Shown here: in pieces, positions 26,804 through 29,584 of the stretch
Layout of the letters: each line of letters starts with the position of its first letter
Numbering within the stretch: position 1 is the first letter of the stretch
Origin: Marinomonas pollencensis
GTDB lineage: Bacteria > Pseudomonadota > Gammaproteobacteria > Pseudomonadales > Marinomonadaceae
Reading direction: 5' to 3'
DNA: 64,000 nt
Assembly (NCBI RefSeq): GCF_003387375.1
Contig: NZ_QUNG01000001.1
Span: 332,510 to 396,509 of the forward strand
The notes under the pieces: generated by a model
The model's database searches: none
The model's input: the letters and a program-made list of their open reading frames with translations, nothing else
Told to the model about the DNA's origin: nothing
Position numbers and translations under genes: made by a program

Positions 26804-27022
26804 ATGAAAGCAAAAACATTTATACCGCAAATGATCCATCACAAAGAAGCCAAAAGACCTCGTGATTATTGGGGTATCTTGTTTGTTGGTCTGGTGTTCA
26901 CCGCCTTAATGGGCAGCTTCTTAATTGATAGCCATAGAGACAAACAGAGCGCTAGCCTCAAAATGGCCCTCTCTAATACCAGCTCACTAAATATTGATAT
27001 AGGTCAGCACCAAAAAAGCTAA
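26804..27022 (+). CDS. Small single-pass membrane protein, Fur-box controlled
   Basis: A 72-residue protein I do not recognise. A basic, cytoplasm-like N-terminus of about 25 residues (IHHKEAKRPRDYWG) precedes one hydrophobic helix (residues about 24-43). A polar C-terminal tail of about 28 residues follows. The ATG at 26804 has GGAAGAG at good spacing. An ATG at 26786 in frame is an alternative start that adds six residues. A universal stress protein gene follows after 41 bp with no terminator between, so the two may be co-transcribed. A role in iron transport or iron-limited respiration is only suggested by the Fur box. Confidence 0.7.
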   Translation: MKAKTFIPQMIHHKEAKRPRDYWGILFVGLVFTALMGSFLIDSHRDKQSASLKMALSNTSSLNIDIGQHQKS

Positions 27023-27063
27023 CCCGCCTATACTCTATTTATACTAGAAAAAGGAGAGTCACT

Positions 27064-27546
27064 ATGCTTGCGCCAATTAACACCATACTATATGCCTGCG
27101 ACCTCGAAGGACAAACCCAATCTGCATTAGAGTTAGTGATGAATCTTGCTTTAGCCCACCAAGCCAAGGTCATCATCATGCACTCTATGGAACCTCTTAG
27201 CACTCAAACCAATAGCATGATTTATAATTATGTATCGGCTGAAGTATCTAAGAAGATGCAGGAAGAGGCTGTCAGAAATGTAAAAGAAAGAATGGATCAA
27301 CAACTTGATCGCTTTATGGAAGAGCATAAAGATACATTAGCAGCACTCACCAGCACCCCAGAAAGACTGATAGTGAATGGCATAGCATCCGATGCGATCC
27401 AATATACAGCGGAAGAAAAAGGCGCTGACATGATCGTCATGAATAGCCGAACGCACAGTCGGATTGGACAAATGATTATTGGCTCAACCGCCAATAAAAT
27501 TATTCACCACAGTAAAATTCCTGTGCTTGTCGTTCCTATTAAATAA
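27064..27546 (+). CDS. Universal stress protein, UspA family
   Basis: A 160-residue single Usp domain. It begins with the nucleotide-binding strand NTILYACDLEG and ends with KIPVLVVPIK. The ATP-binding loop reads SRTHSRIGQMIIGSTANK. The spacing to the final Gly-Ser is right, but the first glycines of the usual G-x2-G are replaced, so it may bind ATP poorly or belong to the non-ATP subgroup. It follows the Fur-box small protein and precedes the LexA-controlled topB. Its function is unknown. Confidence 0.85.
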   Translation: MLAPINTILYACDLEGQTQSALELVMNLALAHQAKVIIMHSMEPLSTQTNSMIYNYVSAEVSKKMQEEAVRNVKERMDQQLDRFMEEHKDTLAALTSTPERLIVNGIASDAIQYTAEEKGADMIVMNSRTHSRIGQMIIGSTANKIIHHSKIPVLVVPIK

Positions 27547-27570
27547 CCCTAGTCAGATACCACTATCTTG

Positions 27571-27606
27571 GATACACTTACTGTATATATAAACAGTAAG
27601 TGTATC
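27571..27606 (+). promoter_or_regulatory. LexA (SOS) box inside a 14-bp-arm inverted repeat before topB
   Basis: Perfect 14-bp arms (GATACACTTACTGT and ACAGTAAGTGTATC) are separated by ATATATAA. The centre, CTGT-N8-ACAG at 27581-27596, is the classic gammaproteobacterial LexA box. The 20-bp core at 27579-27598 differs from the E. coli consensus at one position. The repeat ends one base before the topB start codon, so LexA would cover the promoter or ribosome binding site, and the transcript could fold over the initiation region. Confidence 0.85.
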
Positions 27607-27607
27607 T

Positions 27608-29584
27608 ATGATTCTTTATATTGCTGAAAAACCCAGTCTCGCTCGCGCTATTGCCGCCGCCCTACCCTCTCCACAAAAAAAAGAGGATGGCTGTATTTGG
27701 TTACCTAATGGTGATTGTGTCAGTTGGTGTATTGGTCATCTACTTGAGCAAGCAGAACCTCATCAGTACAACCCCGCGTATAAAGCCTGGAACTTAGAAC
27801 ACCTACCTATCATCCCTAGTGAATGGCAATGGCAGGAAAAAGCCGCGACTAAAAAACAGCTTTCTATCTTAAAAAAGCTCATTAAAAAAGCCTCCGTCTT
27901 AGTCCATGCTGGCGACCCTGATCGCGAAGGACAACTGCTCGTTGATGAGGTGCTGCACTACACTAAGGTGCCAGCTCAAAAACTGAAAAGCACACAACGA
28001 TTATTGATTAACGATCTAACCCCTTTAGCCGTGAAAAAAGCACTTAGCCAATTACGTTCCAATGCCGAGTTTTCAGCCCTTTCAAGGTCAGCTCTTGGTC
28101 GCGCCCGTGCAGACTGGCTATTTGGACTCAATCTAACTCGCGCCTACACGATTCGAGGGCGCCAAGCGGGCTACCAAGGCGTTCTTTCTATTGGTCGCGT
28201 TCAAACCCCGGTATTGGGATTGGTAGTCGCAAGAGACAAAGAAAGAGAAGCTTTTGTGGCAAAGGATTTCTATCAGGTTTGGGCCAACATAGAAGACAAA
28301 CAAGGTCATCGCTTTCGTGCAAAGTGGCTACCGAGCGAATCATGCCAACCCTATATGGACTCAGAAAATCGCGTATTAAGCCTCCCCCTTGCGCAAAATG
28401 TTGCGGCTCGTATCACGAATAAACCGGCCATTGTGAGCCAAGCGAATTACCAACAAAAAAAGCAGCCCCCACCCCTGCCTTATAGTCTGTCTGCATTACA
28501 AATTGATGCTGCAAAAGCTTTCTCTTTGTCTGCCCAACAGGTGTTAGACATTTGTCAGACACTGTACGAACGCCATCAAATGATCACTTACCCAAGATCT
28601 GATTGTCGTTATTTACCAAACCAACAGCACAAAGATGCGACGGCCATCATTAAAGCTCTTGGCAACGCAGAAGGAGAAATCGCTAAGGGCGCGAGCTCAG
28701 CCGATCCAAGCCGAAAAAGTAAGGCGTGGAATGACAAACAAGTGACCGCCCATCACGCTATTATCCCCACTACTCAAGCTTATAAAATGGCGTCTTTATC
28801 CAAGACTGAAGGACTGGTTTTTTCTCTTATTGCTCGTCAGTACTTAATGCAGTTCTATCCTGATTATGACTATTTATCCTCACAAATAAGGCTGGTTATC
28901 GAAGGCGGACAATTTGAAGCCAAGGGCAATACACCGATCGCATTAGGCTGGAAAGCCTTGCTCGGCAATAAAAATAAAGCGAAAAGCCCTTCTGACGAAG
29001 AACAAAGTGAGCTTCCTAAACTGGTAAAAGGCGAAGAAGCTTGGTGCCACGAAGGCATGATAGATGAAAAAGTCACCACACCACCGGCTGCTTTCACCGA
29101 TGCGACCTTGCTCGCCGCCATGACAGGCATCAGTCGCTTTGTGACCGACAAAAGCATTCGAGCTATTCTCAAAGAAACCGACGGCCTTGGTACTGAAGCC
29201 ACGCGAGCCAGTATTATTGAGCTGCTTTTTAAACGCAATTTCTTAACTCGACAAGGTAAGCAGATTCATGCGAGTACCACAGGTCGTGCTTTTATAGATT
29301 GCCTACCGAACCAACTTGTGACACCTGATATGACGGCCAAATGGGAATCCTCTCTAAATGCAATCAGCTTGGGGGAAGCAAGCTACCAAGACTTTATGCA
29401 GAGCCTAGAAGAAAACCTGACGTCATTGCTCGACAAATCAAGAGAAATGCCGACAGCAGCGCTAAAAAACCTGCCGCCTCCAAGTAAAAAAGCATTCACT
29501 AAGCGCAAACCATCGAGCAGAAAATCAACCAGCAAAAAAGCTGGCTCCAGCAATACAAAAAGACGCCCAAGGGCGTCTTTTTGA
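27608..29584 (+). CDS. topB: DNA topoisomerase III
   Basis: A 658-residue type IA topoisomerase that relaxes and decatenates DNA, often with RecQ. The Toprim domain shows YIAEKPSLARAIAAAL and HAGDPDREGQLLVDEVLHY (Asp-x-Asp). The active-site tyrosine is Tyr328 in MITYPRSDCRYLP, the same number as in E. coli TopB. The C-terminal 60 residues are a Lys/Ser/Arg-rich DNA-binding tail without zinc-finger cysteines. It is probably SOS-regulated through the LexA box. Its last codons form the terminator hairpin. Confidence 0.95.
   Translation: MILYIAEKPSLARAIAAALPSPQKKEDGCIWLPNGDCVSWCIGHLLEQAEPHQYNPAYKAWNLEHLPIIPSEWQWQEKAATKKQLSILKKLIKKASVLVHAGDPDREGQLLVDEVLHYTKVPAQKLKSTQRLLINDLTPLAVKKALSQLRSNAEFSALSRSALGRARADWLFGLNLTRAYTIRGRQAGYQGVLSIGRVQTPVLGLVVARDKEREAFVAKDFYQVWANIEDKQGHRFRAKWLPSESCQPYMDSENRVLSLPLAQNVAARITNKPAIVSQANYQQKKQPPPLPYSLSALQIDAAKAFSLSAQQVLDICQTLYERHQMITYPRSDCRYLPNQQHKDATAIIKALGNAEGEIAKGASSADPSRKSKAWNDKQVTAHHAIIPTTQAYKMASLSKTEGLVFSLIARQYLMQFYPDYDYLSSQIRLVIEGGQFEAKGNTPIALGWKALLGNKNKAKSPSDEEQSELPKLVKGEEAWCHEGMIDEKVTTPPAAFTDATLLAAMTGISRFVTDKSIRAILKETDGLGTEATRASIIELLFKRNFLTRQGKQIHASTTGRAFIDCLPNQLVTPDMTAKWESSLNAISLGEASYQDFMQSLEENLTSLLDKSREMPTAALKNLPPPSKKAFTKRKPSSRKSTSKKAGSSNTKRRPRASF
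29557..29582 (+). terminator. Terminator embedded in the end of topB
   Basis: An AAAAAGACGCCC / GGGCGTCTTTTT hairpin with an AA loop has its T-run running into the TGA stop codon at 29582, so the final residues of TopB are encoded by the terminator itself. Confidence 0.88.

Follow-up and report, generated by a model that had tools for sequence, protein, structure and literature searches.

A conserved hairpin at the topB start codon, built around a LexA box, as a candidate read-through lock in Marinomonas

Organization of the topB locus

The window, by which we mean the whole 64-kb stretch of Marinomonas pollencensis DNA analysed here, carries a topB gene for DNA topoisomerase III directly downstream of a gene of the universal stress protein family. 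The topB product scored 838 bits against the profile NF005829 (cut-off 597) and 714 bits against TIGR01056 topB (cut-off 515.75); the usp ORF gave weak matches to the UspG, UspE, UspF and UspC models, every one of them below its cut-off. By topB identity, the closest named relatives are Marinomonas sp. KMM3893 (89%) and M. flavescens (88%), in a comparison from which records very near the window may be missing. Just 61 nt separate the end of usp from the topB ATG, and into this short interval, only 24 nt after the usp stop codon, falls a palindrome of 36 bp (27571-27606) with perfect 14-bp arms, followed by a single T and then by the ATG at 27608. No Shine-Dalgarno sequence is apparent before topB on reading the sequence; a match of at least 4 nt occurs at 51% of 339 control gene starts of the same genome, these being uncurated starts of longest ORFs. 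The features referred to below are as follows.

27064..27546, + strand: usp-family (universal stress protein) gene, an ORF directly upstream of topB on the same strand
27568..27573, + strand: candidate -35-like hexamer TTGGAT, weak, spotted by eye only
27571..27584, + strand: left arm of the palindrome/hairpin, GATACACTTACTGT, from sequence reading and folding
27579..27598, + strand: LexA (SOS) box TACTGTATATATAAACAGTA, core at 27581-27596, kept in relatives
27584-27589, + strand: alternative putative -10 candidate, TATATA
27585-27592, + strand: centre of the palindrome (loop of the hairpin), ATATATAA, from sequence reading
27588..27593, + strand: candidate -10 element TATAAA, putative, mostly within the hairpin loop
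27593..27606, + strand: right arm of the palindrome/hairpin, ACAGTAAGTGTATC, from sequence reading and folding; 1 nt (T) from the ATG
27608..29584, + strand: topB, DNA topoisomerase III, 658 aa, from profile matches

The LexA box and probable SOS control of topB

A first-pass annotation of this DNA had described a CTGT-N8-ACAG box 11 bp before the topB ATG, one substitution away from the LexA consensus and enclosed in a perfect inverted repeat with 14-bp arms. Direct reading confirms both the box and the repeat, and a scan of the window yields the same single mismatch between TACTGTATATATAAACAGTA and TACTGTATATATATACAGTA, the LexA consensus used for scoring. The ACAG of the core ends 11 nt, and the 20-bp box 9 nt, before the ATG. 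The bare core CTGTN8ACAG is by itself unremarkable in the window (1 observed against 0.77 expected); the topB box is the only site with three or fewer mismatches to the full consensus, against a mean of 0.00 in 100 shuffles, and a chance origin of the 20-bp box is ruled out on this basis.

Boxes of the same type precede other genes of this genome that we take, from sequence reading, to be recA, lexA, ruvC, two umuD-like genes and one yebG-like gene; both umuD-like genes (L065 and L072 in G000) have a LexA core. Among the 48 genus genomes sampled, every one of which has a topB match, the best LexA core within 60 nt of the topB ATG matches at 8/8 positions in 25, at 7/8 in 11 and at 6/8 in 12. 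Other genera of the same order were represented by 65 distinct upstream regions, drawn, like the 38 non-genus loci considered below, from 115 non-genus genomes with a match, mostly the better-scoring ones. A perfect CTGTN8ACAG lies within 100 nt before topB in 30 of these 65 upstreams and in none of them when read backwards; 26 of the 30 cores are found 7-37 nt, and the other four 65-68 nt, before the start. The expectation that the box recurs before topB in relatives thus holds across genus and order, though not universally, as the core is intact in 25 of the 48 genus genomes.

The earlier view that topB is not a standard SOS gene has been overtaken by published work. According to the passages cited, EMSA shows LexA bound to the topB promoter in V. 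parahaemolyticus (PMC3323433), an SOS table from a mitomycin C transcriptome of V. cholerae includes topB with a value of 4.8 (PMC5963079), and a lexA deletion in Shewanella piezotolerans WP3 raises a gene printed as 'topA (DNA topoisomerase III)' (PMC4471891). Marinomonas would resemble Vibrio and S. piezotolerans WP3 in placing a topoisomerase III gene under LexA control, but adds a covarying start-codon hairpin around the operator, of which these Vibrio and Shewanella passages make no mention (PMC3323433, PMC5963079, PMC4471891). With topB a known member of the LexA regulon elsewhere, the SOS claim as such is ordinary; the LexA box before topB is already known in other marine bacteria, and the outer hairpin is the newer part. 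A literature search combining Marinomonas and LexA returned no match with either word in its title or abstract. LexA control of topB in Marinomonas is well supported by the conserved box, by canonical lexA and recA boxes in the genomes checked and by published precedent. The core of the palindrome is very probably a LexA site, and from the sequence, its conservation and the publications on other genera we consider it highly likely that the LexA operator overlaps the topB promoter and that topB is de-repressed in the SOS response of this species.

An outer palindrome beyond the LexA box

Pairing extends 8 bp past the 20-bp box and 10 bp past its core, so the 5-bp outer symmetry given in the first-pass annotation was too low. 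When the box was held fixed and the flanks were shuffled, at least 8 outer pairs arose in 7 of 200000 trials, which rules out a chance origin of the outer arms. Nor is long outer symmetry a general trait of LexA boxes in the genus. Symmetry past the core reaches 10 bp at topB. Of the 20 other LexA-type cores read in the genome, 19 have 0-4 bp of it, and among 42 cores in the lexA and recA loci of 18 genomes it does not exceed 6 bp. The partial exception is the core at one umuD-like gene (L065, G000), which has 7 bp of outer symmetry, all A-T.

The distribution of the stem was followed with a score, computed for the best stem without gaps whose end falls 0-4 nt ahead of a start codon and called high at 24 or more. 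High scores were found for 39 of the 48 genus topB genes, that is, in more genomes than have an intact LexA core (25), and seven genus genomes combine such a stem with a core of merely 6/8. At the 339 gene starts, from 464 kb of the window's own genome, only six scores are high, topB being among them and second highest; at the 38 topB loci of other genera none is, the best reaching 22. In high-scoring rows the right arm stands 0-3 nt from the ATG, while loop size runs from 4 to 34 nt between clades.

Besides the main stem design there are four others in the genus (clades B to E). Clade B (G010, G021) has 16-bp arms around a 4-nt loop, and in G021 CTGT and ACAG lie 16 nt apart. Clade C (e.g. 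G014, G003, G016 and G030) has arms of 10-13 bp, such as GGATGCACAAA and TTTGTGCATCC, and a loop with the left LexA half-site only. In clade D (G023, G029) the arms are 15 bp long and CCAG replaces ACAG, and clade E (L118, L127) has a full LexA core between unrelated outer arms. The LexA right half-site is absent in clades B and C, and the stem is present there, hence the stem has been retained where a dimeric LexA site has been lost. In the eight stem-keeping clade B and C genomes checked, the core is 8/8 at both lexA and recA; in G019, a clade-C relative without the stem, the recA box core is 7/8. For this comparison recA was readable at 17 of 18 loci, that of G034 lacking a start. On sequence comparison, the outer palindrome is a feature separate from the LexA box.

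Covariation and the case for RNA pairing

Compensatory change in the arms was assessed in an alignment of 14 distinct sequences of the main, D and E types, in which L003, L019, L024, L133 and the outgroups were left aside and the L127 row ends on the A of the ATG, and in a separate clade-C alignment; both were made without clade B and without L108/L031, L007, L010, L017, L095 and L130, whose stem is absent or altered. In the 14 rows, 97.8% of cells are paired and 8 of the 13 pairs have changed on both sides; double-changed cells number 24, where 5.4 are expected, and 0 of 500 shuffles reached that number. When the partner was shifted by 1-3 columns, pairing fell to 19-40%. Within clade C, 98.7% of cells are paired and 2 of 11 pairs have changed on both sides, a number no higher than in shuffles (reached by 222 of 500); for pair types, which are fewer, 500 of 500 shuffles scored as high.

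The kind of intermediate mismatch bears on whether RNA or DNA is under selection, since a DNA operator should accept G-U and A-C alike, whereas an RNA of the coding strand is more tolerant of G-U. On a topB protein tree, Watson-Crick pairs of 27 main-clade rows turned into G-U 7 times and G-U reverted 4 times; A-C arose once, and one change was double. These rows come from a set of 29, in which L019 has a bulge and did not fit the pattern, and L003, whose left arm carries a 1-nt insertion, was not counted; L007, L010, L017, L024 and L095, in which an arm is lost, were outside it, and the tree itself was built without L133 (interrupted topB) and joins clade D to the outgroup rows, with a long-branch warning. 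Over all clades, a hand count on tree and alignments gave 13 G-U to 4 A-C events (one-sided p 0.025), one of the A-C events lying at pair 11 of L030; with the third pair of clade C counted as a single event, the ratio is 12 to 4 (p 0.038). The G-U excess, which rests on 17 events and could in part reflect strand-biased mutation, is a strand-specific sign of RNA pairing.

A reading in which no RNA is involved would make the extended palindrome a stronger LexA operator, or the operator of a second repressor. In keeping with it, the symmetry of the main clade is centred on the LexA core, conservation of the box extends over the order, and the umuD-like box of the same genome shows the A-T symmetry described above. 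Such an operator accounts poorly, however, for outer symmetry that is so much longer at topB than at 19 of 20 other cores and at the 42 lexA- and recA-locus cores, for a stem that stays in clades B and C when the right LexA half is lost (or, in G021, when the half-sites stand 16 nt apart), for outer arms whose sequence varies between clades and for G-U events that exceed A-C, and we regard a purely DNA-level role as distinctly unlikely. Persistence without the LexA right half-site, compensatory changes in the arms and the excess of G-U over A-C together make the hairpin probably an RNA structure, and the outer palindrome probably acts as such in transcripts entering from usp.

Mutation, too, can produce repeats that are nearly perfect and whose two arms change in concert, through quasi-palindrome correction, in which the template is switched during replication. 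A repeat like that at topB is the expected product of this process and could then be kept with no function at all. Yet such correction would not favour G-U over A-C, tie the right arm to the start codon across five clades or rank topB second of 339 starts, which makes purely mutational upkeep of the palindrome extremely unlikely. Assignment to a known RNA family was rejected as well: three Rfam matches, obtained at relaxed thresholds and far below gathering scores, are animal microRNA precursors that fit any perfect hairpin. The start-codon hairpin at topB is conserved and covarying and, as far as the literature was searched, new for topB.

Predicted folding, start accessibility and a putative internal promoter

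The first-pass annotation had remarked only in passing that the symmetry might place a hairpin over the initiation site, and this turned out to be its more informative part. The predicted folding energy of the region is -30.1 kcal/mol, whereas shuffled sequences average -14.4 (z -5.7). In a read-through RNA, opening the topB start (-18 to +12) is predicted to cost 21.6 kcal/mol, the second highest value among the 339 starts (mean 9.1); for RNAs starting between 27595 and 27605 the predicted cost is 0.9-2.2 kcal/mol. The same calculation, in a set without L130-L132, gave 12.9-23.3 kcal/mol at twenty other hairpin-bearing loci of the genus and 9.2 at L019, whose stem is bulged, compared with 4.7-12.2 at five genus loci where the stem is lost and 4.9-13.6 at 21 topB loci of other genera (ten of these as stretches of 121-134 nt instead of 150).

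RNAs of the second kind require a promoter inside the hairpin. We infer that the topB promoter lies there, giving an RNA devoid of the left arm. The stretch TACTGTATA, which covers the loop and the inner arm, is invariant over the 14 distinct rows from three clades, and TACTGTATAAATAA is invariant over seven clade-C rows in which the LexA right half is lost; that TACTGTATA stays invariant even without this half is expected of a retained -10 element. In clade C, inspection by eye offers only a fair promoter pair, TAGACT and TATAAA separated by 18 nt. A promoter scan of 26900-27900 recognised no sigma-70 promoter-like pair on the + strand, which makes the embedded promoter the weakest step of the argument.

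If transcription instead began upstream, the hairpin could be a regulated 5'-UTR element of the topB mRNA, for example one that senses temperature or binds a protein, with LexA acting as a roadblock. The covariation, which suggests that an RNA with both arms matters, and the lack of a clear promoter in the loop would both suit this arrangement. It would nevertheless push the promoter probably into usp, given the 24 nt between the usp stop and the left arm, and would burden every topB mRNA with a permanent start-opening cost of about 21 kcal/mol; we hold it to be very unlikely.

A proposed read-through lock and its parallels

The preferred reading is that one 36-bp element carries two controls, a LexA operator and a start-codon hairpin. 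The operator would lie over the topB promoter, giving de-repression of topB during the SOS response, and both operator and presumed -10 would fall within the inverted repeat, the right arm of which reaches the start codon. Read-through RNA from usp, having both arms, would fold and bury the topB start region, so that little topoisomerase III would be made from it, while RNA from the embedded promoter would have its 5' end in the loop or right arm, would be missing the left arm and would keep its AUG accessible. With the two RNAs differing in this way, topB expression would hinge on its own promoter. Topoisomerase III works on recombination and replication intermediates, and its expression outside repair could therefore be costly.

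Among several readings this one, in which the hairpin locks out read-through and makes topB expression depend on its own promoter, is judged the best, with a probability of about 0.5. What the analysis shows are the sequence, its conservation and covariation, the predicted folding and the neighbourhood; the transcription start, the read-through RNA, the translation block and LexA binding in Marinomonas are inferred from them. The broader picture, of an SOS gene doubly guarded by a single element, with LexA silencing the promoter, the read-through fold hiding the start and the lock outliving the intact operator in two clades, is put forward more tentatively. If true, bacteria would be using a device of the phage and transposon type on their own chromosome, making a repair gene blind to read-through, and topB RNA-seq counts in such species may misreport the amount of enzyme made.

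Comparable devices are known from transposons and phages. In IS10 and IS50, fold-back of the transposase start region protects against read-through transcription. The likeness to topB would lie in an inverted repeat that blocks translation of incoming transcripts, and the difference in the gene served, a mobile-element transposase there and an SOS gene here. According to the passages cited, transcripts of I-TevI, I-TevII, I-TevIII and segB of phage T4, and of mobE of Aeh1, that come from upstream promoters form a hairpin hiding the ribosome-binding site, sequestration being named also for T4 soc and e, and a promoter whose transcript omits part of the hairpin gives translatable RNA (PMC2988022). 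The logic proposed for topB matches that of I-TevI and segB, in that the upstream RNA hides the ribosome site and the inner promoter frees it (PMC2988022). The T4-type cases, as described there, belong to phages, are transcribed from late promoters and have their Shine-Dalgarno sequence within the stem (PMC2988022), whereas topB is a chromosomal repair gene with a putatively LexA-controlled inner promoter and a stem that would hide the start codon, with no evident Shine-Dalgarno. Judged from the listings and passages of the literature searched, no report was found of a start-hairpin read-through lock for an SOS gene.

Gene neighbourhoods as natural tests

Where the neighbourhood of topB has changed, the fate of the hairpin bears on the proposed lock. 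In G020, where no usp was found and the upstream ORF is oppositely oriented, the hairpin is lost and the LexA core intact; in G019, where about 370 nt separate usp from topB and usp has a hairpin of its own behind it (-18 kcal/mol), the start hairpin is gone; and in G017, whose topB is interrupted in the assembly, the arms have decayed. These three losses fit a read-through lock. At L097 and L110, tblastn found no usp, a small same-strand ORF ends 71 and 98 nt upstream, respectively, and the stem is kept.

Other loci count against the lock. G023 keeps the stem with one mismatch and has no same-strand ORF of at least 70 aa within 363 nt upstream, nor any of at least 26 aa in the 420 nt that precede topB. 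The left arm is lost in G006, G024 and G327, and in G006 and G327, which have enough upstream sequence, an unrelated same-strand ORF of 315 aa lies upstream, where read-through should still matter. G015 has usp upstream and a simple stem score of just 11; its RNAfold structure of -21.6 kcal/mol includes the AUG. Outside the genus, the nearest ORF is on the same strand (not always close by) at 18 of the 38 topB loci, and the stem occurs at none of the 38, so that no general tie of start hairpins to a neighbouring gene on the same strand was seen across the order.

The association with a same-strand upstream gene would be the same if the hairpin were simply the 3' end of the usp transcript, a weak terminator or end-protecting stem overlapping the LexA operator and insulating topB by ending transcription. 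A loose scan indeed lists the stem as terminator-like, with 16 pairs (5 of them G-C) and the tail TGATTCTTTA, as the only candidate between usp and topB (a weak 5-pair candidate lies inside the usp end, at 27508-27525), and the loss of the start hairpin in G019 next to a second strong usp hairpin agrees with this role. Termination, on the other hand, needs no right arm fixed 0-3 nt from the ATG in spite of loops of 4-34 nt, and the stem is A-T rich and followed directly by the ATG and codons 2-5 rather than by a U-tract; the invariance of TACTGTATA in loop and inner arm is likewise unfavourable. A usp 3' end is for these reasons a rather unlikely explanation, and the read-through lock is preferred.

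Further observations were made at individual loci. At L007, L095 and L165 (G006, G327) the 315-aa ORF ends 65 nt before topB, and other sequence stands in place of the left arm and the left half of the LexA site; judging by its start only, the ORF may be guessed to encode a transposase. In L017 (G034), 215 nt before topB, the right arm of the hairpin is split by an insert of about 140 bp (by eye) with strong self-complementarity, and the LexA core, still intact, stands about 155 nt from the ATG; the insert resembles a small mobile repeat. The topB genes at L133 (G017), L131 (G023) and L132 (G029) are about 51-57% identical to that of the window, as against about 85% for the neighbouring fklB, and topB may have been replaced in place in these genomes, of which G023 and G029 join the outgroups in a quick tree that carries a long-branch warning. 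Finally, on contig C11 of G000 (L071:1085-1118), two LexA cores 2 bp apart lie 20 nt before a minus-strand ORF of 198 aa, a possible further SOS gene of Marinomonas.
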